Virus record (IMG/VR): IMGVR_UViG_3300009420_002879
Span: 1-35,472 of that record
DNA length: 35,472 bases
Origin: a virus
Direction: 5' to 3' (one strand)
In this document: positions 1-17,208 of the stretch, piece by piece
Numbering within the stretch: the first letter of the stretch is position 1
Layout: every line of letters starts with the position of its first letter
Notes under the pieces: generated by a model
What the model saw: the letters and a program-made list of their open reading frames with translations, nothing else
Databases searched by the model: none
Told to the model about the DNA's origin: nothing
Program-made: the position numbers and the translations under genes

Positions 1-1135
1 ATTTATATCCTTTAATTATATCTGTTATTCTTATTATATCTTTGTCTGTTAAGTCTGGATGGTTTGGGACATAGAATCCGCATTTATCAATTATAGATAC
101 ATTAGGTAGCTCAAGCCTTCCATATTCTTTTACATAAAAGGGTTGTGTACCCATTGACCCACAAATCATAGGCCTAACTTGTATATCATTTTTAATTAAC
201 CTTTCGACTATTTCATTCTTTCTTTCACTTATTATGGGATATGCAAAACTTGAAATAAAACCTCGATCGTAAGCTTTGTGGCCAAGATATTCCTGGTAAA
301 GCTTGTAGTTCTTATTTCTTTTTATGCATATATCATCCAATTTATCTATCTGACCTAAGCCTATAAATGCCTGTAGATCTGTAGATCTTAGATTAAACCC
401 TGAATGATAAAATGTATATAGTGAATTAAAGTCTGATGTATTCCATTTGCCTCTTAGTTCATTTTTATACTTTTCGCTTGCATCTCTATCCCATCCATGA
501 CTTCTTATTGACTTTAGTACCTCATATAACTCTTCATCATCTGTTGACACAAAGCCCCCTTCTATGGTAGATATATGATGTCCAAAGTATGTTGAAAAAC
601 TAGACATCAATCCAAATGTACCTAATTTTTGATTCTTATAATTTGACCCCATACTTTCGCATGTATCTTCCAAAAGTATTACATTATACTCATCACATAA
701 TTCAGTTATTTTTTGCATATCTGGAACCAAACCTAATACAGATACAAGTAATAATACATCTGGTTTTGTTTCTATAAATATTTTTTTCAAATGCTTTATA
801 TCAACAGATAAATCTTCTAAATTAGAATCGCATAATATTGGAGTCATCCCAAGTTGTATCACAGGAGCAAGATCTGTTGCCCAAGCTACAGATGGTACAA
901 CTATTTTTGCATCTCTTGTAATTCTATTTGCCTCAATTAGTGCCCACAACATTAAAAGATTTGCTGAAGAACCTGAATTGCAAAATATTGAGTGCTTTGT
1001 TCCTAGCCAATTAGACCACTTCTTTTCAAGCTTTGGTGTTAGCTCACCCTTTGTTAATTGTGGATATGTTTTTAACCAATCTATCAATCCATCTATATCA
1101 CTATTACTTATTGTATCCTCAGTAAGTTTTATCAT
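1..1135 (-). CDS. ColD/RfbH-type PLP-dependent sugar 3-dehydratase (DegT/DnrJ/EryC1 fold), C-terminus cut by window edge
   Basis: The frame opens with ATG at 1135 and stays open to base 1, giving 378 visible residues of a family usually near 390, so only about ten residues are missing. It has a DegT/DnrJ/EryC1 aminotransferase layout: an early FCNSGSSANLL phosphate-binding stretch, EDTCES near the middle, then YFGHHISTIEGG. In ordinary aminotransferases a Schiff-base lysine lies in this last motif. Here there are histidines at residues 186-187 and no lysine. That substitution is the known hallmark of ColD (His188; GDP-4-keto-6-deoxymannose 3-dehydratase) and of the RfbH/E1 3-dehydratases. The inferred reaction is PLP-dependent removal of the sugar C3 hydroxyl. 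The start overlaps the stop of the upstream GDP-fucose-synthase-like gene by ATGA, so the two are translationally coupled. Family placement is firm; the exact substrate is inferred. Confidence 0.8.
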   Translation of the reverse strand, partial: MIKLTEDTISNSDIDGLIDWLKTYPQLTKGELTPKLEKKWSNWLGTKHSIFCNSGSSANLLMLWALIEANRITRDAKIVVPSVAWATDLAPVIQLGMTPILCDSNLEDLSVDIKHLKKIFIETKPDVLLLVSVLGLVPDMQKITELCDEYNVILLEDTCESMGSNYKNQKLGTFGLMSSFSTYFGHHISTIEGGFVSTDDEELYEVLKSIRSHGWDRDASEKYKNELRGKWNTSDFNSLYTFYHSGFNLRSTDLQAFIGLGQIDKLDDICIKRNKNYKLYQEYLGHKAYDRGFISSFAYPIISERKNEIVERLIKNDIQVRPMICGSMGTQPFYVKEYGRLELPNVSIIDKCGFYVPNHPDLTDKDIIRITDIIKGYK

Positions 1136-2037
1136 TTTCTAGTCTCCTCATAGTTATTTACAAACCACTCTACTGTCTTTCCTATCCCCTCTTCTATTGG
1201 TGTAAACTTAAAGTCTGGAATTAAATTTATTAGCTTTGAATTATCTGCAGGTTTTCTAAATTGTCCATCTGGCTTTGTGCTGTCAAAGACTACCTCTCCA
1301 TTAAATTCCATTGCCTTAACTATCAAACCAACAAGTTCTTTTATAGATATCTCATGTGATGTTGATAAAATTATAGGTTCACTATCATTATAATTTTCGA
1401 GACACCAATTAACTAGTCTACCAATATCATCTGAATATATAAATTCTCTCAGTGGGTTTCCACTACCCCATATCTCTAGGCGTGTATTATTCTTTTTTGC
1501 AAGATAGCACTTATGTATCAATGCTGGTAATACATGAGATGTTTCTAGATTAAAATTATCATTTGGGCCATATACATTTGTTGGTACAACACTTACAAAG
1601 TTAACATTATACTGATCTCTATACACTTTTGCTTGTACATCTAGCATCCTTTTTGAGTATGCATATCCGTAATTTGACCAATGTGGTTCACCCAAGTGAA
1701 TTTTCTTTTCTGTAAGTGGGTAGTCTATTTTATCTGGAAATATACATGTAGAAAGAAGTGATACCACCTTTTTAGTATTATGAATTCTACATGCCTCAAG
1801 GATATTTGTGTTTATCATAACATTGTCATAATAAAACTCACCTTTTGCAATCATATTTCCATAAACACCACCTACTCTTGCTGCACAATGAACAACATGT
1901 GTAGGCTTATATTTTTCAAATATACTATTTACTGCAGACATGTCTCTTAAGTCTCCATCCTTAGAGCCTAAATGCACATCACCTTTTATTGCTGAGCCTA
2001 CTAGGCCAGTTCCGCCTGTTATTAATATTCTATCCAT
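1132..2037 (-). CDS. GDP-L-fucose synthase / GDP-colitose synthase-like epimerase-reductase (SDR fold)
   Basis: A 301-residue extended short-chain dehydrogenase. The Rossmann motif GGTGLVG is at residues 8-14, the catalytic serine lies in LLSTCIFP (Ser96) and the YxxxK pair is Tyr125/Lys129. Cys98 and His168 (in SHVLPAL) match the acid/base pair Cys109/His179 that E. coli Fcl uses for double epimerisation of GDP-4-keto-6-deoxymannose. The enzyme is therefore expected to epimerise and reduce a GDP-4-keto-deoxysugar with NADPH, giving GDP-L-fucose or, after ColD, GDP-L-colitose. It sits between a ColD-like gene (4-nt overlap) and a small DegT-like gene (8-nt overlap). No GDP-mannose 4,6-dehydratase is visible in this window, so that step must come from outside it or from the host. 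The fucose-versus-colitose choice is inference. Confidence 0.85.
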   Translation of the reverse strand: MDRILITGGTGLVGSAIKGDVHLGSKDGDLRDMSAVNSIFEKYKPTHVVHCAARVGGVYGNMIAKGEFYYDNVMINTNILEACRIHNTKKVVSLLSTCIFPDKIDYPLTEKKIHLGEPHWSNYGYAYSKRMLDVQAKVYRDQYNVNFVSVVPTNVYGPNDNFNLETSHVLPALIHKCYLAKKNNTRLEIWGSGNPLREFIYSDDIGRLVNWCLENYNDSEPIILSTSHEISIKELVGLIVKAMEFNGEVVFDSTKPDGQFRKPADNSKLINLIPDFKFTPIEEGIGKTVEWFVNNYEETRK

Positions 2038-2698
2038 TTTTATTTCTCCAAACTGAGTATCCTGATAAATCTTTATATTTCCAAGAACCTCCTGAGTCTT
2101 TATTTATTTGTGGTAATTCATCAAAAAGCTCTATGCCTCTTGCTGCTTGTTCTGGTGGCATATAAAAGTTCCAACCAAGAATTTCTATATCATCTATTGA
2201 GTCATGGTGTTGCCTATTGTTTCTACCTTCATATCTTGCAAGCCTAAACCAATCTGCTGCATCTTTGTCATCTGTTAGGATCATTCCACCTTTTGCAATA
2301 CCTAAGATTTTTCTTATATGGAATGATAAACAGTGATATGTGCCTTTTATATACATGTCTCTTGTAAACCTTGTTGCGCCGTCAATTACAGGATAGGGAT
2401 CTAGCTGATAAGCACCACTCCATTCTCTATCATCCCACTTAATTTTGCAGCCTGCATGTAATATTAGTCCTGGCACTGAAAGATATGTCCTTTTTGGTAT
2501 AGAAATTTCACCTTCTGCACCAAGATATTTTAAGCACATAAACATTGCATTTGTGCAACTATCACATGATACTGCATATTTACTTCCTGCATATTTTGCT
2601 ACCTTATCTTCAAATGCATCAACAACATCCCAAGGGTCTCTTATGTCATAGCCTTGACCCTTTAGTCTTTCTATAATATCCTCTAAGTTTGTATACAT
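2030..2698 (-). CDS. Compact DegT/DnrJ/EryC1-like PLP-fold protein
   Basis: At 222 residues this is little more than half the usual 370-390 of the family. It keeps the N-terminal large-domain pattern: KYAVSCDSCTNAMFMCLKYLG (21 residues, positions 40-60) resembles the cofactor phosphate-binding stretch, VIDGATR (105-110) takes the place of the aspartate motif, and SFHIRKILGIAKGGM places Lys130 where the Schiff-base lysine is expected. The normal C-terminal small domain is almost entirely absent. It ends shortly after GWNFYMPPEQAARGIE, which resembles the conserved G.N.r...aaa.G region. It may be a minimal aminotransferase, a partner subunit or a degenerate paralogue. Its stop overlaps the downstream start by 8 nt. 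Family placement is good, activity uncertain. Confidence 0.65.
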   Translation of the reverse strand: MYTNLEDIIERLKGQGYDIRDPWDVVDAFEDKVAKYAGSKYAVSCDSCTNAMFMCLKYLGAEGEISIPKRTYLSVPGLILHAGCKIKWDDREWSGAYQLDPYPVIDGATRFTRDMYIKGTYHCLSFHIRKILGIAKGGMILTDDKDAADWFRLARYEGRNNRQHHDSIDDIEILGWNFYMPPEQAARGIELFDELPQINKDSGGSWKYKDLSGYSVWRNKNG

Positions 2699-2699
2699 A

Positions 2700-3353
2700 T
2701 TATTTGTCCATTATATTATAATACCCACCTATGATGAATTTATTATTCATAGTTGCACTTTCTAATTCATATCCCTCATCATAATTACAAGGTGGTACAA
2801 TTCTAAAGTCAAAACTACACCTTGTTTGCTTTGTGTCATTAAACCTATTAAAGTGTCTCTGTCTATTTCCATAGAACATTATAACTTCTCCAAACTCCAT
2901 CTCACGAGACTTATAGTCGCCTAGGCCTGGCATTGACTCAACATACATTCCATTATTACCATACATTTTAGTTAAAGGCATTAGTATATTAATCTCTCCA
3001 GATGGATGCTTATGATCTTTATCTCCATCACAATGAGCCACATAAACAGCCTTACCTCCTGGCTGGTTAACCCTAAATGATGGAGACTTTTGGTATATCA
3101 TTTTAGTTTCGCTGGTAAACATTGGTGCTAATTCTTTCTTAATAAATAGCTCATATAAATCTATAAACTCTGGCCAGCCTTGTCTTAGTCTGTCATAAAA
3201 CTTTGTGTGCCATTTTGAATCTGTATCAGCACCTAAGTCTCCACCTGTGTGGTCAAGGTTGTCATCTAATATACTTAATGGTACATCATATAGATCAGCA
3301 ACCATTTTATCAAATGGATACCTCTCTTTATTAAATTTTATAATTTTTGTCAT
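2700..3353 (-). CDS. 2OG-Fe(II) oxygenase-like protein (StrG-like)
   Basis: A 217-residue soluble protein with a candidate facial triad: HxD at His107/Asp109 in VAHCDGDKDH, a distal His167 in GNRQRHFNRF, and a following Arg178 that could bind 2-oxoglutarate (TRCSFDFR). A beta-rich core between them (INILMPLT, MYVESMPGLGDY, GEVIMFYGN) fits a jelly roll. Proteins of this StrG-like type occur in streptomycin and surface-sugar clusters, matching its place among glycosyltransferases and sugar-nucleotide genes. A hydroxylation or oxidation of a sugar or lipid-linked intermediate is inferred. It overlaps the upstream GT10-like gene by 23 nt and is separated from the next gene by one base. Confidence 0.55.
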   Translation of the reverse strand: MTKIIKFNKERYPFDKMVADLYDVPLSILDDNLDHTGGDLGADTDSKWHTKFYDRLRQGWPEFIDLYELFIKKELAPMFTSETKMIYQKSPSFRVNQPGGKAVYVAHCDGDKDHKHPSGEINILMPLTKMYGNNGMYVESMPGLGDYKSREMEFGEVIMFYGNRQRHFNRFNDTKQTRCSFDFRIVPPCNYDEGYELESATMNNKFIIGGYYNIMDK

Positions 3354-4242
3354 ATCTAAAGTCTTTTATTGTATTAAATTTATTGTCATTATTACAGCTC
3401 TGTATTAGTCTTAGTAGTACATCATCTGGGTTTATATATCCTTTTGCAATATAATAATTTTCCTTGATATACGGCAACATTTCCTTATATTTTTTATGTG
3501 AAATATCATTTAATATATCTTCCAATTCATCTATATCTGTCCATTGGACTATTCCTCTTGCATCAAAGAAGTCTCCAATGTTCTTTGCACCTCTATATAT
3601 AGGTACATTTTTTGTTATAAAGCAATCAATTATCTTTTCTGTATAGTAGAAGTCATCTATTGAGTTCTCCATTGCGATTGAAAACATGTAACTATTTAAT
3701 GTGTCCGACTTTAGGTCAACTTGTGTTCCTCCACCAAATGTATCTATTTTATTGCTATATCTTTCTACAACCCTATGCCTTAGAGGCCTATCTATTCCAA
3801 CTTTTGTAGAATTTAACATAGATACAAGCTTAGACTTTTCATTGCCTCCGTGAGAGGCTGCCTCTATAGAGCACCAGTCTGCAGGGATAAACTTATATTT
3901 GTCTGGGTCTTTGTCAATTAATTGCTTATTAAAGGTGAATATAAAGTCTAATAAATCTTCAACATCTTGTATATCACTATAAGGTTGATAGCTATGAGCA
4001 ATTGGTTCCATTATAAGACCTATTTTTATTGGTGAAATAACAGAATTTATTGTATTTCTATTAAAGTGACTATCTGTAAATACAGTTATTCCATCATGTG
4101 ATTTTTGATTTCTAATCCACATAGTGTCTTTAGGGCCTGTAATTAAGTCTGAGTCTGGTATTCTTATGCCACGCATTAGTGCAGCTTCTTTCCAGCTATT
4201 TGCATGGGCAATATTTGTGTCCCATATGTTTATTTTAATCAT
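3331..4242 (-). CDS. Glycosyltransferase family 10 (fucosyltransferase-like)
   Basis: The start is placed at ATG 4242, not at an in-frame ATG at 4314, because 4239-4242 forms an ATGA overlap with the upstream stop, a junction used repeatedly in this operon. The protein has 303 residues. Residues 185-222 contain SYMFSIAMENSI, DDFYYTEKI and NVPIYRGAKNIGDFF. This is the GT10 donor-site signature (F-ENS---DY-TEK--…P-Y-GA-NI) of alpha-1,3/4-fucosyltransferases, which use GDP-L-fucose. Upstream, KLVSMLNSTK and a following Arg-rich helix match the family linker. The predicted role is transfer of fucose or a related GDP-6-deoxyhexose to a glycan. The nearby Fcl/ColC-like and ColD-like genes fit a supply of such donors. 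Confidence 0.72.
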   Translation of the reverse strand: MIKINIWDTNIAHANSWKEAALMRGIRIPDSDLITGPKDTMWIRNQKSHDGITVFTDSHFNRNTINSVISPIKIGLIMEPIAHSYQPYSDIQDVEDLLDFIFTFNKQLIDKDPDKYKFIPADWCSIEAASHGGNEKSKLVSMLNSTKVGIDRPLRHRVVERYSNKIDTFGGGTQVDLKSDTLNSYMFSIAMENSIDDFYYTEKIIDCFITKNVPIYRGAKNIGDFFDARGIVQWTDIDELEDILNDISHKKYKEMLPYIKENYYIAKGYINPDDVLLRLIQSCNNDNKFNTIKDFRYDKNYKI

Positions 4243-5552
4243 CTTCTCATCATTCCGTAGTCTACATTTCTTTGTTGTATGTCGCTCCATCCATCCTCTT
4301 GATACATTAACCAAGGGTGGAAAGCATATGCATTTATCTGCCCAGCAGCTTGTAACTCTGCATATTGTACATCAATTTGCCTGTTAACAAACCTTGTTGC
4401 TTCTAATAGCTTATCATATACTGTATCCTTTATAATATAAGCTGATGTTGTATATGCATAGTTGCACTTTACTACCCTATCATTTATTCTTGTATATGGC
4501 TTTTTGTGATTGCAACCTAGATAGATCATCTCCCAATCTTCTGGTATGTGCTTATAGCCTTCAAAGAATTTTTCCAATACATTGTCAGTAAATACTACAT
4601 CATCCTCTAGTATGAGAATCGACTTTAACCCTCTAGCCTTAGCTTCTGATATTATATTGAAGTGGCTAAGATAGCAACCTACTTCGCCAGGCATAAGATT
4701 TGGGTGATTAGCTTGGTCGTCACCTTTTACTGCCTCAAATCTTTTAAAGTTTATAGATAGATCTTTTAGCCTAGAACTAGACCTCATCATCCTATCTGGT
4801 CTTGTATTCATATTTATAACATATGTCTCTTCAAACATGCCATTAAACTTCTTTGATAGCCTTGTCTCTTTTCTTACAAACTTATCCTTACAAAATTCAA
4901 GTAGCTCATCCTTTCTTGATCTAAGTTCCTCTTGCCTCCCTTGATCGTGTTGGTCTGATTCTAATATGAAATTATTATTAGATCTCTTTAGGCTACCTTT
5001 ACATTTATACTTAAAATAATAGCTTAGCCATAGATCTTCAATAAATTTATACCTTTCTGGTAGCTCTTCAAATAGTTCGTTTTCGGTAAACACACGAATT
5101 GGTAATATCATACCACCAGTACCACAGTAATCAACATCCTCTCCAGGAGTGTCAATCCCCTCCTTATCCCAATAAGAGTCTTTGATCTTGTGCGCATAAA
5201 ATGAATGTATTGTGTCTGGTCTAAATTCACTAATAAATGTTTCCACCATATCCTCACCAAATTGAACATCATCATCAATAAATATACATGGTCCATCATA
5301 CCCAGTATTTGCAACCTCTTTTGCAAAATAGAACCTTCCAATACCACCTACATTCTTATTTGAATGTTGTACATCTATCTTATATGAGAGCTTATACATC
5401 TTTACAATTTCATCTAGCTTCTCTTTGTCTTCTGCATTATTGTTCCAAATATATAGCTTAAATTCATGATTTGTCTGGCCTTCTAGCATTGCAAGAGTTC
5501 TAGGTATATTATCCGTCCTCTTCCAATTACACATTATAATTGGTATTTTCAT
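4239..5552 (-). CDS. Two-domain glycosyltransferase: GT2-like N-terminus fused to GT25 (LPS-type) C-terminus
   Basis: The protein has 437 residues. The N-terminal half starts IPIIMCNWKRTDNIPRTL and carries FIDDDVQF (Asp93-95), a GT-A nucleotide-sugar and metal-binding motif typical of GT2. Residues 243-430 form a second enzyme: YVINMNTRPDR opens a GT25 domain, GCYLSHFNI (292-300) matches the GT25 GC-LSH motif, and LILEDDV (313-319) is its metal-binding acidic motif. Two catalytic domains in one chain suggest consecutive sugar additions. GT25 members typically transfer galactose or glucose in LPS or collagen glycosylation, but donor and acceptor cannot be read here. The stop overlaps the GT10-like start by 4 nt and the start overlaps the upstream GT2 stop by 4 nt. 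Confidence 0.82.
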   Translation of the reverse strand: MKIPIIMCNWKRTDNIPRTLAMLEGQTNHEFKLYIWNNNAEDKEKLDEIVKMYKLSYKIDVQHSNKNVGGIGRFYFAKEVANTGYDGPCIFIDDDVQFGEDMVETFISEFRPDTIHSFYAHKIKDSYWDKEGIDTPGEDVDYCGTGGMILPIRVFTENELFEELPERYKFIEDLWLSYYFKYKCKGSLKRSNNNFILESDQHDQGRQEELRSRKDELLEFCKDKFVRKETRLSKKFNGMFEETYVINMNTRPDRMMRSSSRLKDLSINFKRFEAVKGDDQANHPNLMPGEVGCYLSHFNIISEAKARGLKSILILEDDVVFTDNVLEKFFEGYKHIPEDWEMIYLGCNHKKPYTRINDRVVKCNYAYTTSAYIIKDTVYDKLLEATRFVNRQIDVQYAELQAAGQINAYAFHPWLMYQEDGWSDIQQRNVDYGMMRR

Positions 5553-6199
5553 TTCCTTAGCCCCATTTCTCTTTCCTTATTATCATGCCAAGCATTATCA
5601 CTAACTTGTTTTTCTAGTGTCTTCTTATGATAGATTGCATATAGCTCTTCCTCAGGCAATGTTGCAAATGTGTCTTGGCCTATTAATCTTCCATGAGGTA
5701 TAGGGTTAAAGTGTATGCCTTTGTTATTTCTGAATAGCCTATCTTGAGAGTCTGGCCAGTTTACTCTGCCTTCTTTGTCTAGCTGCCAACCTCTTGAAGC
5801 TCTGTACTCCTCTGTTAGGCCTTCAACTATATTTGTTCTTGGTAAAAAGAATACATCAACATCATTTGTATTTATAAGATTGTGTACTATCATATAGAAT
5901 CTATCATCAAGCAATTCATCAGCATCTAGGTAAAATAGATAGTCTGTATCTGCTTGCTTTGCTAGCCAATTCTTTTGATCATGGATTGCCTTTTCTATAG
6001 GCTTTTCAAATGATATAATTTCATCCTTATAGCTTTCCAAGATATACTTTGTCTTATTATTATCACCCTTAGAGTCTCTGACAACATAGATCTTATCATT
6101 TGGTCCCTTGAGTTCTGTAATTTGCTTTAGTAATTCTTCTAATGATTTGCCTTCATTTTTACAAAGGATCATATATCCTATATTGAGTTCTTTCGCCAT
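5549..6199 (-). CDS. Family 2 glycosyltransferase
   Basis: A 216-residue GT-A enzyme. IGYMILCKNEGKSLEELL is the first beta strand and nucleotide-binding helix; IYVVRDSKGDNNK follows, and LFYLDADELL supplies the DxD motif near residues 92-96. RASRGWQLDKEGRVNWPDSQDRLFR downstream (25 residues, about 133-157) resembles acceptor-side motifs of bacterial GT2 proteins that glycosylate surface polymers. It starts inside the end of the upstream gene (22-nt overlap), a start retained because it includes the complete first beta strand. The protein is short but covers the catalytic GT-A core. The donor sugar is unknown. Confidence 0.82.
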   Translation of the reverse strand: MAKELNIGYMILCKNEGKSLEELLKQITELKGPNDKIYVVRDSKGDNNKTKYILESYKDEIISFEKPIEKAIHDQKNWLAKQADTDYLFYLDADELLDDRFYMIVHNLINTNDVDVFFLPRTNIVEGLTEEYRASRGWQLDKEGRVNWPDSQDRLFRNNKGIHFNPIPHGRLIGQDTFATLPEEELYAIYHKKTLEKQVSDNAWHDNKEREMGLRK

Positions 6200-6657
6200 T
6201 GTTCTTCTATCTTACTGTTAAATTTATAATCTAATAATTGCAATCCTCTTAGCTTTGTTGTAAAGAATGTTCTATAAGCATCGCCCATACCAAATGAATT
6301 TGTTCTAGTTGTTGCTTTTAGAATAGTCTTATAGAAAGATCTTGGATCAGCTGTCATCTCTAGTATTGGTATATCTACTGCAAGTATTTCAGGATTAACT
6401 AGTGTCCTTACACCTACGTTTTCAACCCATCTATTAAAATTACTAAATGTTATTTTATCCAAAGACAGGCAATGAGTCTTCCTTAAGTGCTCGGCATTTA
6501 GTACAACTAATACTTGCCTCTTACTTCCTCCAGACAAACCTTTATATCTTGTTTCAATAATCATGCCCCTCTCGAGACTACCATAATTAATTGGATACTT
6601 AGCCTTTACACGGACTAGGTGTTCATTTAATCTTCCTTCTACTTTTTGATTAGCCAT
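6178..6657 (-). CDS. Conserved-looking phage protein of unknown function
   Basis: A 159-residue basic, soluble protein with no signal peptide or membrane segment. I do not recognise the family. SLERGMIIETRYKG followed by KRQVLVVLN gives a short beta-barrel-like N-terminus vaguely like SH3/PemK-type barrels, but no catalytic signature is visible and I do not assign one. The C-terminal half (SFYKTILKATTRTNSFGMGD, YRTFFTTKLRGLQLLDY) is helical and basic. It starts on the last base of the upstream stop (TAATG) and overlaps the GT2 gene by 22 nt, so it belongs to the same transcript. A role in glycan decoration or in virion assembly would be a guess from position alone. Confidence 0.6.
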   Translation of the reverse strand: MANQKVEGRLNEHLVRVKAKYPINYGSLERGMIIETRYKGLSGGSKRQVLVVLNAEHLRKTHCLSLDKITFSNFNRWVENVGVRTLVNPEILAVDIPILEMTADPRSFYKTILKATTRTNSFGMGDAYRTFFTTKLRGLQLLDYKFNSKIEEQWRKNSI

Positions 6658-7109
6658 TAAAACTTCACCTCGCCCATTTCATTACATGCCTCCAAGAATC
6701 TCTTAAAATGCTTAGTATCTTTTGTTTCTAATTTAGACTCATACTTAAGTGTTCCCTGGGACACACTAGAAGACTCTTCTTCTGTTAGTTTGCTAATTGG
6801 TGTGTATGACCAACCCCACTTATCTTTAGTGCCTTCTGGATATACCATACCTTTCTGAGTCTGTATAGTTGTTGGATACCAATAAGATTCTCCATCATCA
6901 AACCTTAGACTTTTCATAAGTTCTGGCATCTTATCTTCATACTTGTCAACATCAAACTTTGGATTCTTTTTGTAATTTAGTGGGTTTTCATTTGTATAGA
7001 ATCCACTTCCAACACACATCTTAGATTCTCCATGCCTATCATCAAATTCTACAATTACATGCTTTTCTTTTGTTATTGGGCTTATACCCCATTCAGCTTT
7101 ATTATCCAT
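6657..7109 (-). CDS. Unknown phage protein, Trp/Tyr-rich
   Basis: A 150-residue acidic, soluble protein. Visible features are EWGISPITKEKHVIVEFDDR at the N-terminus, aromatic-rich stretches ESYWYPTTIQTQKGMVYP and KWGWSYTPIS, and a C-terminal helix (KHFKRFLEACNEMGEV). No cysteine cluster or membrane segment is present. The start overlaps the end of the upstream GT4 gene by 8 nt in ATGGATAA, and its stop shares a base with the next start. The family is not recognised. The tight coupling and compositional similarity to its neighbours support a real gene. Confidence 0.6.
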   Translation of the reverse strand: MDNKAEWGISPITKEKHVIVEFDDRHGESKMCVGSGFYTNENPLNYKKNPKFDVDKYEDKMPELMKSLRFDDGESYWYPTTIQTQKGMVYPEGTKDKWGWSYTPISKLTEEESSSVSQGTLKYESKLETKDTKHFKRFLEACNEMGEVKF

Positions 7110-8361
7110 TTACTTTCTCCAATTTTGGTACATTTAATTTAATCTTTTTTGCAAACTTTGGAAGATTTGAATTAAGTATCCCCTCGAATGCTTTTGTCAT
7201 CTCATCCAAGTTAAAGTCTTCTCTTATTAGTCTAGCTTGCTTTCTTGCATCTGGTATATATTTCTTATAATTCTTAAATACATCTTTTAATATATTTGAT
7301 GCGTATCCATAGTCAACATAGAACCACTTAGAGCCTTTTAATATCATATTGTTTGCAGCTGAGTTGTCAACTTCTCTTAGTGACCCCGGGAGCTTTACTG
7401 CGTGAGTTATAAAGTCTACTTGTCCAGACCAGTTAGAAACAATTAATGGCTTTTGTGTGATAGAGAACTCAGCTAATGGTCTACCATAACCTTCACCATG
7501 AGTAAGTGAAACCATAGCTTTCACCTTTGGGTGATTATACAGCCCATTCATCTCATCCTCACTTAACTTTCCTTCAAGTACATATATATTTGGAGGGTTA
7601 TCATAGCCTTCAGTTATCTGACTTATCTTCTTATCTATTTCATTATATTCAAGTATGCTAAATGTGGCGCCTGATGTTTTTAATACTAAAGCTGGCCTTT
7701 TATTTACGCTAGTATTCTTAAATGTTTCAATGAATGTCTTTATTGTCCCACTAACATCTTTCCTATCGTGGCCAAAATTGCCAGCAATCCAGTGACCAGT
7801 ATACAGAAAGCAAAAGTCTTCCTTAATCTCATCTAATGTTTCTACTATTGTACTTGGTATCTCAGCCTTAGAAACCTTTTTGAATATATCTGTATCTATT
7901 CCTTCAAATAATACATCTATTGGAACTTCACACTTAAGTTGGCCTACACTTTCACCTGACTGGTCATTTCTCTTGTCATATATTGTATCAAGTAGAATTT
8001 GCCTTGAGTGATGTGAGGGTACTATTACTCTATCCATTCTATTGCACCCTTCAATCCACTCAGATGGAGCCTGAGTTGTTTCTATGCCTGCAGTTATTCC
8101 TATATTATATTTTGCAACCTTCTTAAATTCATTCGGCACAGAAACTTGCATAAATACATCAATTTGCTGCTTTTGATCTCTAAGTATATACTTTTCGAAC
8201 TCTGGGTAACTATCACTTGGGCAATCACCCCAGTTTGTTGGTACACACTTAACATCAAATCCATCCATTGCAATTAAGCTTTTTAGTAGATCTCTTGAGT
8301 GATCACCATATCCAGATCTTGAAAAAATTGGGGCTTGAAAGCCTATTACTGTCTTACTCAT
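7102..8361 (-). CDS. GT4-family glycosyltransferase (GT-B fold)
   Basis: A 419-residue retaining GT-B enzyme. The N-terminal domain opens with TVIGFQAPIFSRSGYGDHSR, a glycine-rich acceptor-domain loop. FCFLYTGHWIAGNFGHDRKD marks the start of the donor domain, and HGEGYGRPLAEFSITQKPLI near residues 290-310 is the GT4 E-x7-E signature that contacts the sugar nucleotide. Helical residues near the end (KKYIPDARKQARLIREDF) complete the fold. Start and stop are both coupled: ATGA with the upstream GT4 gene and an 8-nt overlap with the downstream gene. Two consecutive GT4 genes suggest sequential sugar additions; donors and acceptors are not predictable from the sequence. Confidence 0.85.
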   Translation of the reverse strand: MSKTVIGFQAPIFSRSGYGDHSRDLLKSLIAMDGFDVKCVPTNWGDCPSDSYPEFEKYILRDQKQQIDVFMQVSVPNEFKKVAKYNIGITAGIETTQAPSEWIEGCNRMDRVIVPSHHSRQILLDTIYDKRNDQSGESVGQLKCEVPIDVLFEGIDTDIFKKVSKAEIPSTIVETLDEIKEDFCFLYTGHWIAGNFGHDRKDVSGTIKTFIETFKNTSVNKRPALVLKTSGATFSILEYNEIDKKISQITEGYDNPPNIYVLEGKLSEDEMNGLYNHPKVKAMVSLTHGEGYGRPLAEFSITQKPLIVSNWSGQVDFITHAVKLPGSLREVDNSAANNMILKGSKWFYVDYGYASNILKDVFKNYKKYIPDARKQARLIREDFNLDEMTKAFEGILNSNLPKFAKKIKLNVPKLEKVNG

Positions 8362-9776
8362 CTTATAACTCCTGTTGGGTATTTTAATTTTTTAGTATTT
8401 GTCTTCTTTTTTAGACTAAAGCTCTTTCTTGGTTTCCAATTATCAAAGCATATATTGATTGACTTGGAGATTCCGTCAGCCATAGCTTGGGCAGTAAAGT
8501 GGTTTAGTATTGCCCATTCTCTACCTTTAGCTCCTGCACTATCTCTATCATCTTTGCTAAGTGAGTATACATCAGCAATAGCTTTTGTTATATCATTAAT
8601 ACTAACTCTACTATCATAGATGTATGGTGTAACTGGTGAACCAACTAAGTTAAGTTGTGGCCACAATGGGAATGCCCATTCTCCATGCTCTTTATATCTA
8701 CCATTACTATTACTTGGCCAATCTGCCGTATAATCTTTTATCGTTAGATCATTGCCTTTTTCATTCTTAAGCCCCATCTGATCCTGTAAGCCTCCAATGC
8801 ATGAAGCAATAATTGGTGTTCCAGACATTATTGATTCCATAACACTTAAGCCAAAGCCTTCTGCAGAGCTTGGTTGGCATGTTACATCTGATAAGTTATA
8901 TAGATAGTTTAGTTGTTCTGCTGGTATCTTTCCACTTGAAAATATAACATTTGCACCTTCTCCTAAGTTTTTAACTACTTCAGGCAGGTCAGTTCCATTT
9001 TGATCTACTGGGTCTGTGTGTAGTATTAAGAATGTGTTTTGCTTTTCTGCTTCAGTGTCCATAGACTGAACAAAGTTTTTATATGCAAGTATTAGATCCT
9101 GGGGTCTCTTTCTTTGTATATTTCTACTATTAAATAGCAATACAAATGAGTCATCATTCAATGCTGGAAAGTACTTTGCCTTAAATTCAATAAGTCCTGG
9201 ATCAGACTTATCTAGTGGCTTAAATACTTTCTGGTCAACACCATGTGGCACATATGTCAAGTCAACATCCTCTTTTCTTGGATTTTTCTGGCATACATGC
9301 TTATTAATGTTGTATGTCTGTTTTGATATAGCAATCAAAGAGTCACAGCAGTCATAGAATGGTTCATTCCAGTGTGGGAATGGTAGATCATCCCAAATGT
9401 TATAATACATAATTGGTGTAGTTTGCCTTAGCTCATTTTCCATTTGATATAGCCAACCCCAAAACCTTGGGTCTGTAAAGTGTATTATTGCATCTGGCTT
9501 CTCTATATTTAGCACCTCGCTTAGTATTTGCTTGTTTCCATACCCTTCAACTGGATACAGCTTAAGATAGAAATTCTCAAAACCACTATCTCTTTTTACA
9601 TCTTCGTTGTTGCTAAGGTCAACCACCTTACCTTTTTCTGGTGATTGTATTGCACCTGATATTTGTACCCAATCAAATTTGTCTAATGATTTTAGTACTA
9701 TTTCCTTACTCATCGTTCCAACACCTGACGGCAGTCTAATGTCATCTCCGAGTAAAAGTATCTTCTTTTTTGTCAT
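8358..9776 (-). CDS. GT4-family glycosyltransferase (GT-B fold)
   Basis: I place the start at ATG 9776 (472 residues), not at the in-frame ATG at 9839, which would lie within the ribbon-helix-helix gene. The 9776 start has AGGGAAAAGG just upstream and begins with the expected first strand, KKKILLLGDDIRLPSGVGTM. FVLLFNSRNIQRKRPQDLI begins the donor domain, and SSAEGFGLSVMESIMSGTPI is the GT4 donor-binding motif. Cysteines are scattered with no cluster. It is the first gene of the glycan-decoration operon, 13 nt after the ribbon-helix-helix stop. The family call is firm; the sugar specificity is not known. Confidence 0.85.
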   Translation of the reverse strand: MTKKKILLLGDDIRLPSGVGTMSKEIVLKSLDKFDWVQISGAIQSPEKGKVVDLSNNEDVKRDSGFENFYLKLYPVEGYGNKQILSEVLNIEKPDAIIHFTDPRFWGWLYQMENELRQTTPIMYYNIWDDLPFPHWNEPFYDCCDSLIAISKQTYNINKHVCQKNPRKEDVDLTYVPHGVDQKVFKPLDKSDPGLIEFKAKYFPALNDDSFVLLFNSRNIQRKRPQDLILAYKNFVQSMDTEAEKQNTFLILHTDPVDQNGTDLPEVVKNLGEGANVIFSSGKIPAEQLNYLYNLSDVTCQPSSAEGFGLSVMESIMSGTPIIASCIGGLQDQMGLKNEKGNDLTIKDYTADWPSNSNGRYKEHGEWAFPLWPQLNLVGSPVTPYIYDSRVSINDITKAIADVYSLSKDDRDSAGAKGREWAILNHFTAQAMADGISKSINICFDNWKPRKSFSLKKKTNTKKLKYPTGVIR

Positions 9777-9789
9777 AACCTTTTCCCTA

Positions 9790-9957
9790 TTATTTATTAA
9801 ATTTACTTCTAAACTCTTTGTCTTTAATATACATCTCAAGAGTTAGATTCACTAACCTTTGGAATGTAATTCCTTCTTTTATACTAAGAATTTTGAACTC
9901 CTGGTGAATGTTTTTATCAACGTTCACAGATGTTAACCTTTTTTTGTGTTTATCCAT
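9790..9957 (-). CDS. Small ribbon-helix-helix (Arc/MetJ-like) DNA-binding protein
   Basis: A 55-residue ORF starting at the second of two tandem ATGs (9960 and 9957). GGAGG lies 5 nt before the 9957 ATG and only 2 nt before the 9960 ATG, so 9957 is preferred. The sequence begins MDKHKKRLTSVNVDKNIHQE and continues FKILSIKEGITFQRLVNLTL, ending with a charged tail. A short beta strand (RLTSVNVD), a helix, a Gly-Ile-Thr turn and a second helix are the classic ribbon-helix-helix layout, in which paired strands contact the DNA major groove. It lies immediately before the glycosyltransferase operon and downstream of an AATATA box (9985-9990). It may autoregulate or control this operon. Its DNA target is unknown. 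Confidence 0.75.
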   Translation of the reverse strand: MDKHKKRLTSVNVDKNIHQEFKILSIKEGITFQRLVNLTLEMYIKDKEFRSKFNK

Positions 9958-9996: not shown

Positions 9997-10398
9997 TTAC
10001 GAAATAATTACGACTTTTTTATCATTTTTTTTAGCTTCCGTAAGTGCATGGTTTGTCCCTCTTGCATCATTTCCACTAGCTATAAACCCTATGACAACAT
10101 CACAATACTTTGCTAACATTATATTTCTTATAAAGAAATGTCTTGTATTGTATTGCTTTCCGTAATACTTCTCAGTAAGAGCAGAATAAAAGTTATAGAC
10201 AGTGTGTGCTGGGTTAAACTCAACGTATTTACAATTAAATTCTAATGCAAACTTCTTTGCATATCTATCAGCACCATCCTTGCAACCTCCACTAACAATT
10301 GTTAGCTTAGTTCCAAATTTCTTCTGTAGATTAAAGATTGTGTCCTTAACCTTCTTTCTATTTTCGTATTGCCTACTTCCTATTATTCCTACTTTCAT
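9997..10398 (-). CDS. SLOG-superfamily (DUF2493/YspA-like) Rossmann protein
   Basis: The start is set at ATG 10398 (133 residues) because 10395-10398 is an ATGA overlap with the upstream nuclease and the first strand MKVGIIGSRQYENR begins there. An in-frame ATG at 10428 would lie inside the nuclease. The motifs GSR (N-terminal), IVSGGCKDGADRYAKKFA (glycine-rich loop and helix) and ASGNDARGTNHALTEAKK (C-terminal) are those of SLOG domains related to DprA and YspA. The family binds nucleotides or nucleotide-derived ligands. Phage members are of unknown function. Coupling to a RecB-like nuclease is compatible with DNA processing or defence sensing, but this is inference. Confidence 0.78.
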   Translation of the reverse strand: MKVGIIGSRQYENRKKVKDTIFNLQKKFGTKLTIVSGGCKDGADRYAKKFALEFNCKYVEFNPAHTVYNFYSALTEKYYGKQYNTRHFFIRNIMLAKYCDVVIGFIASGNDARGTNHALTEAKKNDKKVVIIS

Positions 10399-11312
10399 TT
10401 TACTAATTTTCTGTCCTTTTTCGGACATAATTCATAATTCTTCTTAAATGAGCAATACTGGCACCCAGTCCTTAGTGCGGGATAGTGTGCCTCCTTATTG
10501 TGCTTTCCATTTGCTGTAAATGCGTGGCCAATAAACTCAGTTAATAACTTCTTTGTTCTATTCATTGATACCTTACCATGTGGTGGTTGGTATTGTTGTA
10601 TTCTCTTTTGTGGGAAGTCCATATTTTCATATAGCTTCCTCTTGACAATAAAGTATTCTATGTTTATATTTTCCTCTGGTACATCATATTGCTTTGAGAA
10701 ATACCTTTTGTATATTCTAAGCTGATCACCTTCTGCCTTTTTCTTTTTTGCACGCCATCCAAACATTGACGTCTTAATGTCATATATTGTAATTGTATCA
10801 CCTTGCTTCATTACAATATCTGCAAAGCCCATTAGCATTATATTTGTATTGTCATCACTTTCACATAGGATAGGTATTTCAACACCAAGTAGTTCTGTAT
10901 TCTTTTTTGAGAAGTATGCACCCCGCCTTTTCTTGAAGTAGTCTATGATTAATACACCTTCATCATAGAACTCTTGCATTTCTGCAGCATCTGAGAAGTG
11001 TGATCCGGTGTCTTTTACTGCCCTCTTGTATTCTGTTGCCATGCATTCCTTAAGCATCTTTTCAGAGTCATGTGCGTTTGCTGCTACTGCAGTTTTTTCA
11101 TACATTGTTGTTAAATACTGTTGTAGTACTTCATGCATGGCTGTACCAAATACCAGAAACATTGAAGGTATAAACTCTCTGTGTTTGTCAATATATGTAA
11201 GCTTCCATTGTAGTGGGCAGCCTTTGTACATATTAAGTTGGCTATATGAGATGGTCTTTTTACCCATCATCCTGGCTTTTATAGCTAAGTCTTTTGGTGT
11301 TTTTAATTGCAT
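10395..11312 (-). CDS. PD-(D/E)XK nuclease, Cas4/AddB-like with probable Fe-S cluster
   Basis: A 305-residue protein with a RecB-family nuclease core: TAMHEV (His60), GFADIV (Asp165), YDIKTS (Asp178-Ile-Lys180) and GDQLRIY (Gln197), in the canonical order and spacing. Cys32 in KGCPLQW precedes the core, and CQYC plus ELCP (Cys284, Cys287, Cys296) follow it. One N-terminal and three C-terminal cysteines are the arrangement that binds a 4Fe-4S cluster in Cas4 and AddB. The predicted role is DNA end resection or exonuclease activity during replication-recombination. The gene starts 5 nt after an AATATA/TATATT box with no Shine-Dalgarno, and follows a copy of the intergenic repeat. It is coupled to the SLOG gene by ATGA. 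Confidence 0.82.
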   Translation of the reverse strand: MQLKTPKDLAIKARMMGKKTISYSQLNMYKGCPLQWKLTYIDKHREFIPSMFLVFGTAMHEVLQQYLTTMYEKTAVAANAHDSEKMLKECMATEYKRAVKDTGSHFSDAAEMQEFYDEGVLIIDYFKKRRGAYFSKKNTELLGVEIPILCESDDNTNIMLMGFADIVMKQGDTITIYDIKTSMFGWRAKKKKAEGDQLRIYKRYFSKQYDVPEENINIEYFIVKRKLYENMDFPQKRIQQYQPPHGKVSMNRTKKLLTEFIGHAFTANGKHNKEAHYPALRTGCQYCSFKKNYELCPKKDRKLVK

Positions 11313-12727: not shown

Positions 12728-14383
12728 TTACATCATTCCAAATCCACCACCCATTGGAGCAGCTTCTTCTTCATTTTTATTTTCATTAATAATTATACAT
12801 TCAGTTGTTAAAATTGTACCAGCAACTGAAGCAGCCTTTTCTAGTGCAACTCTTGTTACTTTTGCTGGGTCAATAATTCCTGACTTCATCATATCAACAA
12901 CTTGTTCAGTTCTTGCATCAAATCCCCAATTCATTGATATAGTGCTTTCATCTGTCATTCCGTCAAAAGCATGTATTTCATTCCATATTTGATTTGCATC
13001 TAAGCCTGCATTTGACATAATAAGATTAAATGGCTCCTGTATGGCTTGCATTACAATTCTATATCCACTTACTTGATCATCATTCTCAAATACTCCATCC
13101 TCAACTTCGTCATCAAAGCAACTTCTTAGTGCTATTCCACCTCCAGGTACAATACCTTCATCAAGTGCAGCCCTAGTTGCATGTAATGCATCCTCTACTC
13201 TATCCTTTTTCTCTTTCATTTCAATTTCTGATTCAGCGCCAATCTTTAGAATTGCTACTCCTCCAGCCATCTTTCCCACTCTTTGTTGGTAGCCTTCCTT
13301 CTCATAGTCTGAATCTGATTTTTCAAGTAATACTTTTATTTCGTTAACTCTGTTTGCAATAACTTCTGGGTCACCTGCACCATCAACAATTGTTGTTGAC
13401 TTACTTGTAACAGTAACCGTTTTTGCACTACCTACAAAGTCTGCTATATTAAGTGTATCAAGCTTGTGACCTTTACTCTTACTGATAAGTGTTCCTCCAG
13501 TAATTGTTGCGATATCCTCAAGTAGTTGAGTTCTCTTTTCACCAAATTCAGGAGCCTTAACTGCAGCAACCTTAAGTGTTCCCCTTGCCTTATTAACAAC
13601 AAGTCCAGCTAATGTCTCACCTTCAATGTCATGTGCAATTATTAGTAATGGTTTGTCTTGTGCAATTGCAGCTTCAAGTGGCTTTACTAGCTCCTTAAGG
13701 GTTTGAATCTTTTTATCAACTAAGATGATCCATGGGTCTTCAAATTGTGCATGCATATGATTGTTATCAGTTACAAAGTACGGTGATATATATCCTCTAT
13801 CAAATTGAACACCTTCAACTGTTTCTAGGTATGTATCATTTGTTCTAGACTCCTCAACTGTTATAACACCTTCTCTTCCAACCTTCTCCATTGCAGTAGC
13901 TATTAACTTTCCTACCTCTTGGTCATTGTTTGCAGAAATTGTTGCAACTTGTTCAATCTCATCCTGAGAAGAGATATCTGTAGCTATCTCCTCAAGCTTT
14001 TCAACAACTGTAGTTACACCAATATCCATTCCTCTCTTTATATCAACTGGATTAGATTTTAGTTCTGTAATGATGTCAAACCCTCTTTTTAAGATTGAGT
14101 TGGCTAATATAGTTGCCGTTGTTGTTCCATCACCTGCCTCATCATTAACTTGATTAGCAACTTCTTTTACCATTTGTGCACCAGCATTCTCAATTTCATC
14201 TTCTAAGAAGACCTCTTTTGCAACTGATACTCCATCCTTTGTTGATACAAACTCACCATTCTTTTCAAGTATTACATTTCTACCCTTTGGTCCTAAAGTT
14301 GCAGATACTGCAGATGATAACTTTTGCACACCACTTCCGATTAGCTTTCTAGCATCCTCGCTAAATTCAATTCTTTTCTTCAT
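12728..14383 (-). CDS. groEL: Chaperonin GroEL (Hsp60), full length
   Basis: A 551-residue protein, close to the usual 545-550. ATPase motifs are intact: TLGPKGRNV (29-37), STKDGVSVA with Asp50, GDGTTTAT with Asp85 and [15 protein letters not shown] in the C-terminal equatorial domain. The apical domain keeps hydrophobic substrate/GroES contacts ([33 protein letters not shown]), and the C-terminus has a short GGGFGMM tail. It folds substrate proteins inside a double ring capped by GroES. It follows groES by a TAATG junction. Full GroEL genes are uncommon in phages, which more often encode only a GroES analogue such as T4 gp31. A large capsid or a host chaperonin incompatible with phage proteins could explain it. 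No disruption is seen. Confidence 0.97.
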
Positions 14384-14676
14384 TATTTCTTCTCTTTATA
14401 AATTGTTAAAATTTCGTCCTCTCGACAAACGATAAACTCTACTCTGTCAACTTCTAATCTCTTACCTGCAAACTTAGGATAGAATACTACATCTCCTACT
14501 TTGCATTGCATGTGACCTCTATTTCCAGTGTTAAGTAGTGGGCCTGGGCCTACTGCTAATACTTCGCCTCTAAGTGATACTTCAGCATCTACTTCTGGCA
14601 TAATTACTCCACCTGATGTCATTTCATCTGGTTCTAATCCTTTTAATACTACATTTCCTCCTGTTGGTTCAAACAT
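14383..14676 (-). CDS. groES: Co-chaperonin GroES
   Basis: A 97-residue Hsp10. EPDEMTSGGVIMPE is the mobile loop that inserts into the GroEL apical domain, with the conserved Gly-Gly-hydrophobic motif. GEVLAVGPGPLLNTGNRG and KVGDVVFYPKFAGK are the beta-barrel core and roof region. The length and order match bacterial GroES more closely than T4 gp31. It starts 7 nt after a strong AAGGAGG ribosome site, on the last base of the upstream stop, and its own stop overlaps the groEL start. The pair should supply a phage chaperonin chamber in the host cytoplasm. Confidence 0.96.
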   Translation of the reverse strand: MFEPTGGNVVLKGLEPDEMTSGGVIMPEVDAEVSLRGEVLAVGPGPLLNTGNRGHMQCKVGDVVFYPKFAGKRLEVDRVEFIVCREDEILTIYKEKK

Positions 14677-16248: not shown

Positions 16249-17208
16249 TTAAATATAAAAATGTAACGAATCAAATTTTATATTTATTTTAACATTTTCT
16301 ACCATTGCATTAGCATTTTTATCTAACCATGTCTCTATCATCATGCATATAGATATAAAGTCGTGATTAAATAGGAAAATATTTGAAGATCTAAAGTTGA
16401 CATTTACATTTAGTGTGCTACCTCTAAGTAGAATGTGAACATAAGATAAACATTCATCATCTGTAAATACAAACCTTCTACTAAGTGACCCCTCTTTCTT
16501 TCCGTAGTATCCTGATAGCTCTGATTCTAACTTTTTTGTGAACTTTGCTAATTGAAATTTATAACTGTCAATCTCAAGCTGCTGATAGTCATTTATATTC
16601 TCCAACCCTGCAAATAGATCCTTTGATGACCACTGCTCTACATCACTACAGGTCATGTCTAGGTCCATCTTGTAATTTACAAGCTCCTTAGTCCCCATGT
16701 GTTCACTACCAAACTCTTGTAATGCTGTTATTGCAGTTCCCATTTGATGTTCTGGGCTTAATAGAAATTCATTATACATTTCTATAATGCCATTAATTCT
16801 TTTTGCAATATGTCCTGGATCATCCTCTCCATCTATAATCCAAAAGTTTCTATGCTTTGCAAACCTGATAGATAGATCTTTGTATATTTCTGCTACATGC
16901 TTTATTGCTGACCAAGTCTGGAATTCATCTCCTCTCTTAGAATATCTCTTGTGTAATTCAGCCTCACTAATATCAAAATAGAAAACTATATTATCATTTA
17001 GGTATGATATAAACTCTTGTTCTCTTTCCTCATTATTGTCGAATCTGTTATGCAGCATGCCGTAAGCCATTATTGACATCAAGCCTCTATCGTTTAATAG
17101 GACGTCAAAGTCGTTGCCAGATTGTATATTTTCCCAAACCTTTTGGTATTGAGTTGTCTTGCCTGCACAGTCAGGTCCTTCAAATACTAATTGTAGTCTC
17201 TTATTCAT
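16249..17208 (-). CDS. Fusion of a thymidylate/NMP kinase-like domain and a thymidylate-synthase-like domain
   Basis: About 319 residues from ATG 17208; ATG 17211 is equally possible, both near AAAGG. The N-terminus is a P-loop kinase: LVFEGPDCAGKTTQ (Walker A at 11-19), then LLNDRGLMSIMAYG with the Asp-Arg of TMP kinases (40-41), YFDISEAELHKRYSKRGD as the lid side and FWIIDGEDD. The C-terminal third resembles thymidylate synthase: SRR (243-245), Cys253 in DDECLSYVHILLRG, then NVNVNFRSSNIFLF matching the TS L-QRS-D-FLG motif, ending at HFYI like the TS HIY. The stretch between SRR and Cys is shorter than in TS (the usual AWNP...LPPC region is missing) and the Asp of RSxD is Asn. A TS-fold pyrimidine C5-modifying enzyme linked to a kinase is inferred. 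It follows the polymerase with an 8-nt overlap. Confidence 0.65.
   Translation of the reverse strand: MNKRLQLVFEGPDCAGKTTQYQKVWENIQSGNDFDVLLNDRGLMSIMAYGMLHNRFDNNEEREQEFISYLNDNIVFYFDISEAELHKRYSKRGDEFQTWSAIKHVAEIYKDLSIRFAKHRNFWIIDGEDDPGHIAKRINGIIEMYNEFLLSPEHQMGTAITALQEFGSEHMGTKELVNYKMDLDMTCSDVEQWSSKDLFAGLENINDYQQLEIDSYKFQLAKFTKKLESELSGYYGKKEGSLSRRFVFTDDECLSYVHILLRGSTLNVNVNFRSSNIFLFNHDFISICMMIETWLDKNANAMVENVKINIKFDSLHFYI

Follow-up and report, generated by a model that had tools for sequence, protein, structure and literature searches.

The closest described counterparts of the genes analyzed here are a bacterial locus and several phage cassettes. In the O55 locus of Escherichia coli, a short-chain dehydrogenase/reductase (SDR) gene is followed, with a 4-nt overlap, by a ColD gene whose product has His in place of Lys (reductase 3865-4788, ColD 2702-3868 of L239). 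We take these two genes to be colC and colD from the ColD match, since their RefSeq names are given by family; the locus also contains gmd and an annotated alpha-1,2-fucosyltransferase gene. Synechococcus phage S-CAM7 carries consecutively gmd, a 'GDP-L-fucose synthetase', a 'putative CDP-4-keto-6-deoxy-D-glucose-3-dehydrase' and a gene of glycosyltransferase family 11 (GT11), and phage ACG-2014f has the same gene order under vaguer names, its first SDR sharing 56% identity with one protein of the cluster that contains gmd. For phage S-SCSM1, the published account lists gmd, GDP-L-fucose synthase and fucosyltransferases (PMC9602691). Here we describe a cassette of this kind at one edge of the IMG/VR virus record IMGVR_UViG_3300009420_002879, a stretch of 35,472 bases referred to below as the window. 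Its glycan island (bases 1-9839) has the sugar-making enzymes at the contig-edge end, and all genes treated here lie on the minus strand. The island includes a ColD-type protein, an SDR of the GDP-L-fucose synthase kind, a DegT-family protein of half the usual size and an Fe(II)/2-oxoglutarate (2OG) oxygenase.

The S-CAM7 and ACG-2014f cassettes resemble that of the window in the same two enzymes, the same order and the GHH motif, with gmd upstream, whereas they differ in a dehydratase only 36% identical to that of the window, in a reductase of another clade and in having no match to the half-size DegT protein. Given these two cassettes, that of the window is not new in kind. Its less ordinary element is the conserved half-size DegT with its oxygenase. 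The O55 locus is more distant: its ColD is 32% identical to the window protein, its reductase belongs to another clade, and the window cassette differs in being phage-borne and in having a GT10-like transferase nearby. Matches to the ColD-type protein occur in 83 of 50,697 phage records, among which the His column was examined for S-CAM7, ACG-2014f and LR756502. We found no paper title naming a phage-encoded colitose pathway, a weak negative drawn from titles.

The product of the terminal gene (2-1135) belongs to the DegT family (PF01041, E 2.5e-60) and retrieved ColD (2gms, E 3.2e-57) first in a phmmer search of PDB, followed by E1/RfbH (3bcx, 3.3e-39) and perosamine synthase (3bn1, 8.9e-32). 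The initial annotation had proposed that His186-His187 occupies the place of the catalytic lysine, and this is what the alignments recovered: phmmer placed the pair on the HH of ColD (first His at 188) and of E1/RfbH, and the lysine column of the MAFFT alignment has H in the window protein. In a tree of 48 DegT proteins, 18 sequences with H and 30 with K fell on the two sides of a single branch with 100/100 support (the bacterial lysine rows were the first 26 that fitted among the matches listed in the genome_contigs scan). E. coli ColD and the window protein shared one supported group of 15, all of which keep HH, mostly as GHH, and which is separate from three longer RfbH-like proteins. A review describes the His-for-Lys exchange as the most important difference between 3-dehydratases and aminotransferases, and ColD as lacking the iron-sulfur cluster of E1 and SpnQ (PMC8987622). 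The stretch of the window protein that aligns with the cysteine-rich part of E1 (3bcx) contains no cysteine, which argues that the enzyme is ColD-like rather than E1-like. An E1/RfbH type was rejected on this ground and on the separate tree position of the RfbH-like proteins (433-449 aa), and its score against the RfbH model NF011936 lay below the curated cut-off (206 versus 423 bits). A plain aminotransferase was rejected on the His that sequence alignment puts in the lysine position. Assignment as a ColD-type histidine enzyme is supported, as a prediction from sequence.

Taken as a whole, the sugar-making end of the island is best explained by synthesis of a colitose- or fucose-type deoxy sugar, a reading we consider probable, with somewhat better than even confidence. 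The route that we infer would begin with GDP-4-keto-6-deoxymannose made by Gmd, an enzyme that either the host or a gene beyond the fragment would provide. The ColD-type enzyme would remove the C3 hydroxyl with pyridoxamine 5'-phosphate (PMP) and His186, with glutamate serving for regeneration, and the coupled epimerase/reductase would then yield GDP-L-colitose, or GDP-L-fucose from the undeoxygenated intermediate, for transfer by the GT10-like enzyme. The half-size DegT would most likely aminate a keto sugar, and the 4-keto product of Gmd is a plausible one, in a GDP-perosamine-like reaction; the oxygenase would act on the same glycan or a precursor. Colitose is a plausible product on these gene assignments.

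The first enzyme of this route is not encoded in the window; since the contig breaks off within the ColD gene, a gmd beyond it would be out of sight. The initial annotation had advised looking for gmd just outside. No contig continuing the window past base 1 was found in viral_contigs: two exact DNA patterns recovered 0 and 1 stretch, the latter (L240) belonging to another phage with 69.9% DNA identity to the window over 1073 columns, in which the oxygenase gene directly follows ColD. Among 14 relatives' records known to carry a ColD-branch protein (G002-G010, G013-G016 and G021, with G005/G006 and G009/G010 apparently near-identical pairs), 10 have a GDP_Man_Dehyd match at E<1e-100. In G014, a single 403-codon frame at a distance from the ColD gene matches this profile in two segments (1.7e-76 and 8.8e-39). 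Directly after ColD comes gmd in L151, L152, L154 and L159, and it is one gene off in L153. Gene neighbourhoods were mapped with BLAST clustering and a simple caller of the longest open reading frames (ORFs); one cluster, c0, contains other SDRs besides gmd and was not a basis for statements on gmd. Besides the absence of gmd from the window itself, two results weigh against the route: G002, G008 and G016, all of them fragments, have no gmd-grade profile match, and L240 has no recognized gmd-like gene over the 8.8 kb that follow ColD. The records together support gmd as the expected missing partner of the predicted ColD-type enzyme.

The reductase gene (1132-2037) is joined to the ColD-type gene by a 4-nt ATGA overlap, as the proposal of translational coupling had it, and encodes an Fcl-like SDR with Ser96, Cys98, Tyr125xxxLys129 and His168, the Cys98/His168 pair being present as described. 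We take these residues to act as a Ser/Tyr/Lys triad and a Cys/His acid-base pair. In PDB the protein matches the GDP-L-fucose synthases 4e5y (350 bits) and 1bsv (167 bits), presumably the human enzyme and E. coli Fcl, respectively; the score against the former is about twice that against the latter. In a tree of 19 SDRs (19 of 22 rows were kept; two SDRs of L156 and a 232-aa SDR of L161 were dropped), ColC, Fcl and cyanophage SDRs formed one supported group and the window SDR fell in another. Its identity to the E. coli O55 proteins is 34% for Fcl and 28.5% for ColC. The earlier label of an Fcl/ColC-like enzyme consequently survives in its first half, GDP-L-fucose-synthase-like, but the protein is not a ColC orthologue. 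This clade position, outside that of ColC, means that sequence alone cannot name it a colitose synthase. It counts against the proposed route, as does a score under the curated cut-off of the GDP-L-fucose synthase model NF047922 (238 versus 500 bits).

These results bear on an alternative that we regard as somewhat unlikely, namely that the cassette makes only GDP-L-fucose through Gmd and the Fcl-like reductase, with the ColD-type enzyme serving a separate sugar or a different nucleoside diphosphate hexose. In its favor are the affinity of the reductase to GDP-L-fucose synthases outside the ColC/E. coli Fcl clade and the behavior of ColD adjacency on the reductase tree, where this label (set by hand) changes 4 times, at least 3 of them forced by supported branches; the pairing with ColD was thus gained or lost several times and is not lineage-specific. 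Among long relatives the nearest is G001 (20 shared genes of L041, at 74-96% identity), and it supplies a further point: it carries gmd, GT10 and GT11 genes and a like reductase, and no full-length DegT was found in it, so that fucose alone is possible there; this last absence also tells against a deoxygenating route. The overlap of reductase and ColD genes, as in E. coli O55 colC-colD, argues against a fucose-only cassette, however, as does the recurrence of this gene order in phages from three branches of the reductase tree. Identity between G001 and the window is 87% for the oxygenase, 61% for the SDR and 46% for the half-size DegT. The lower values of the last two suggest that the cassette is exchanged faster than the remainder of the genome, as would be expected under antigen-like or host-range selection.

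Transfer of the deoxy sugar would fall to the GT10-like protein, whose ORF spans 3331-4314 with a probable ATG start at 4242. Its position beyond two further genes agrees with the initial annotation, and it scores above the PF00852 cut-off of 23.9 bits, but the fucosyltransferase label rests on a partial match (profile positions 21-127 of 182). Its PDB match, 2nzw, is an alpha-1,3-fucosyltransferase.

Between the reductase and the GT10-like gene lie two genes that the earlier feature list lacked, those of the half-size DegT (2030-2698) and the oxygenase (2700-3353). The former matches PF01041 (71.6 bits versus a cut-off of 19.8) in two pieces that cover only profile positions 25-87 and 163-242 of 360; by this coverage, full-length large and small domains are absent. 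Its best profile match is GDP-perosamine synthase (3bn1, E 4.8e-17), an enzyme of about 370 aa compared with 222, with which it shares the lysine active-site segment and the fold common to DegT sugar aminotransferases, while a segment in the middle and the greater part of the C-terminal domain are missing from it. In the alignment, 35 residues of the half-size DegT span 77 of the synthase and its last 29 face 126, leaving the synthase with about 42 unmatched residues in its centre and 97 at its C-terminus, and Lys130 falls on the synthase lysine. Lys130, Asp106, Ser125 and Thr71-Tyr72 are invariant across 23 sequences.

An AlphaFold2 model of the half-size DegT from 19 sequences had a predicted local distance difference test score (pLDDT) of 94 and a predicted template modelling score (pTM) of 0.91. 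Foldseek matched it best to GDP-perosamine synthase (3dr7, E 2.8e-13), and VIA-align ranked the sugar transaminase 7b0d on top (Z 20.8, 207 of 222 residues aligned, root-mean-square deviation 3.1) with many structures within 2 Z units. Several other sugar aminotransferases equal perosamine synthase in this ranking, a point against a specifically perosamine-like reaction; the near-ties indicate that the fold is clear and that the substrate is not fixed by it. Ratios of nonsynonymous to synonymous rates (dN/dS) were 0.03-0.13 in pairs with finite dS, with dS near saturation. In named phages, seven records match, four of them of Flavobacterium phage immuto (39% identity), and the gene stands directly before gmd in phage loci L150 and L167. 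The protein is conserved and is probably an active pyridoxal 5'-phosphate (PLP) enzyme. Were it instead a decayed remnant or a non-enzymatic protein of the PLP fold, the unmatched portions of the synthase would be accounted for; this is very unlikely, given the invariant residues, the confident model, the purifying selection and the retention of the protein in phages and two bacterial phyla.

The oxygenase has H107, D109, H167 and R178 (an HxD...H iron site plus Arg) invariant in relatives, and its model (pLDDT 90.9) has the fold of 2OG oxygenases (PtlH, Z 13.1; SptF, E 5e-08). The protein itself had no Pfam match and no match in the 50,697 named phage records at E 1e-5. Its likeness to the sporadic carbohydrate cluster 2OG-Fe(II) oxygenases (TIGR04324) consists of weak, partial matches of three relatives (E 4e-13 for L156) that are far under the curated cut-off (49.5 versus 150 bits), and the window protein scores 16.2 bits (E 0.0058). 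The oxygenase gene is no more than one gene away from that of the half-size DegT in 25 of 29 loci, 18 of which have at most 6 nt between the two or an overlap, and in 14 of 17 once near-copies at 95% identity are removed. Several loci speak against a general pairing. No oxygenase was recognized in the half-size DegT loci L035, L036, L037 and L039, three genes separate the two in L150, and no oxygenase homologue was recognized beside the distant half-size proteins of L008, L170, L171, L173 and the bacterial loci. In L240:327-2134 the oxygenase directly follows ColD and no half-size DegT was recognized in the 10.3-kb stretch, an arrangement that suggests a possible role of the oxygenase for the ColD sugar as well. 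Judged by titles, we found no paper on the half-size DegT protein and none on a pairing of DegT and 2OG-Fe oxygenase in phages.

The neighbors of distant half-size proteins are also informative. Amidinotransferase and radical S-adenosylmethionine (SAM) genes lie near the half-size DegT in cyanophage S-SCSM2R (L170:7992-11656) and in phage contig L039:5238-12347. The amidinotransferases of the two are 38% identical to each other, and that of L039 matches inosamine-phosphate amidinotransferase 1bwd at E 3.4e-82. The latter enzyme, StrB1, acts in streptidine synthesis on the amine made by the DegT enzyme StsC. An amidinotransferase neighbor therefore fits an amine-making role of the half-size DegT, although it does not fix the carbon or the sugar, and a guanidino-sugar route in these two phages is possible from their gene content. 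The radical SAM neighbors were not retained as BtrN-like dehydrogenases, with one weak PDB match for L170 and none for L039. One could extend these observations to a novel, minimal kind of PLP transaminase of fold type I, paired with an oxidizing partner that makes a ketone on a sugar. Phages would in this way add amino groups to their glycans and, in two cases, convert them to guanidino groups; we consider this quite doubtful. The partner would perhaps be the Fe/2OG oxygenase in the clade of the window and the radical SAM enzyme in S-SCSM2R and L039, and loss of most of the small domain may let the half-size DegT act on sugars already within a glycan.

In bacteria, a genome_contigs scan gave at least 63 loci; among the matches listed, three (L175-L177) encode a half-size protein of 196-202 aa and most others are full-length DegT. 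Profile searches at E<1e-30 recovered the half-size protein from 7 of the 245 genomes in the L177 phylum (titled Marinimicrobia) and 2 of the 296 in the L176 phylum (titled Bacteroidetes). Polysaccharide-type genes are found nearby: a Wzz-type gene (L176) or a Wzi-type gene (L177) within about 6 kb, and glycosyltransferase-like and ABC transporter genes in L175. The order WbuC-like cupin, methyltransferase, half-size DegT, gmd recurs in 4 of the 7 bacterial loci examined (L177 and L242-L244), a count that leaves two of nine genomes outside. The L177 cupin was rejected as a sugar ketoisomerase, having no useful PDB relative and a TIGR04366 score of 38 bits against a cut-off of 42; most of its PDB matches are Cake and Scone, which we take to be designed proteins.

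The genes of the island are collected in Table 1.

Table 1. Genes of the glycan island, with window coordinates and the evidence for each assignment.
Feature	Coordinates	Strand	Evidence
ColD-type PMP-dependent 3-dehydratase (predicted), 378 aa, C-terminus cut at contig end	2..1135	-	PF01041, ColD 2gms, His clade
GDP-L-fucose-synthase-like epimerase/reductase, 301 aa	1132..2037	-	4e5y E 1e-103, 1bsv 4.5e-48; Cys98, His168, YxxxK
Half-size DegT, 222 aa, Lys130/Asp106/Ser125 invariant in relatives	2030..2698	-	PF01041 in two pieces, AlphaFold2 model, 3dr7
Fe(II)/2OG oxygenase, 217 aa, H107xD109/H167/R178 invariant in relatives	2700..3353	-	Alignments, fold, sub-cut-off TIGR04324 in relatives
GT10-like glycosyltransferase, possible fucosyl-type transferase	3331..4242	-	PF00852 31.5 bits, partial; 2nzw E 5.7e-07
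Two-domain glycosyltransferase, GT2 + GT25	4239..5552	-	PF00535 + PF01755
GT2 glycosyltransferase, conserved core	5549..6199	-	PF00535; homologues in relatives
Glycosyltransferase, conserved core	7102..8361	-	phrog_2170, no Pfam match; homologues in Flavobacterium and Microcystis phages
Glycosyltransferase, conserved core	8358..9839	-	PF00534 E 1.9e-15

The core glycosyltransferases (5549-9839) are common to Flavobacterium phage immuto (L171:423-4280), whose proteins are 32-43% identical to those of the window; beyond immuto, the 7102-8361 protein matches only Microcystis phage Mel-JY01 among named phages. The island of the relative L150 has GT11, sulfotransferase and FkbM-type methyltransferase genes. 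A gene for a small SLOG-family protein (YAcAr, PF10686, E 1.3e-08; 9997-10428) adjoins the glycosyltransferase core and is kept in relatives.

The remainder of the window encodes GroEL, a GroES-like Cpn10, DnaB helicase, UvsX, a gp32-like protein and both ribonucleotide reductase subunits. The GroEL and Cpn10 genes adjoin (12728-14676), and a UV endonuclease UvdE gene lies at 31508-32530 (PF03851, E 5.6e-59). DNA polymerase III alpha is split over the adjacent ORFs 17201-19447 and 19450-20733, with the break inside PF07733 and the PHP part separate, and the split is identical in the close relative L041. A host among the Bacteroidota is one guess. Thymidylate-kinase-like and polynucleotide-kinase-like genes in the window could suggest that the glycosyltransferases act on modified bases of the phage DNA, but the scanned proteins of the window (a part of all its proteins) included none named as base-hydroxymethylating, and ColD, Fcl and gmd are not known to belong to DNA hypermodification; we consider this extremely improbable.

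As to the destination of the glycan, the phage's own virion proteins are the leading candidate, a tentative choice in which our confidence falls short of even. The one indication of the virion over the host surface is a tail fibre gene in S-CAM7, which closes the island there, seven genes past the dehydrase; that there is just this one counts against the virion reading. Modification of the host envelope during infection, by way of superinfection block or surface change, is a lesser possibility, on the unlikely side. A cyanophage article gives lipopolysaccharide-type genes this role (PMC9602691), and the Wzz- or Wzi-type genes near the bacterial half-size DegT agree with it. The lytic-type replication gene set of the window and the S-CAM7 tail fibre gene count against the host envelope, neither of them decisively.

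The ColD cassette indicates that phages whose reductases belong to different branches encode a predicted 3-deoxygenation of GDP-4-keto-6-deoxymannose, so that the making of rare dideoxy sugars may be controlled by phages. If the half-size DegT works, it would, at about 200-220 residues, be to our knowledge unusually small for its enzyme class, and a simple biocatalyst open to testing. A cultured system is available in Flavobacterium phage immuto, with its half-size DegT homologue and glycosyltransferases of the same core.

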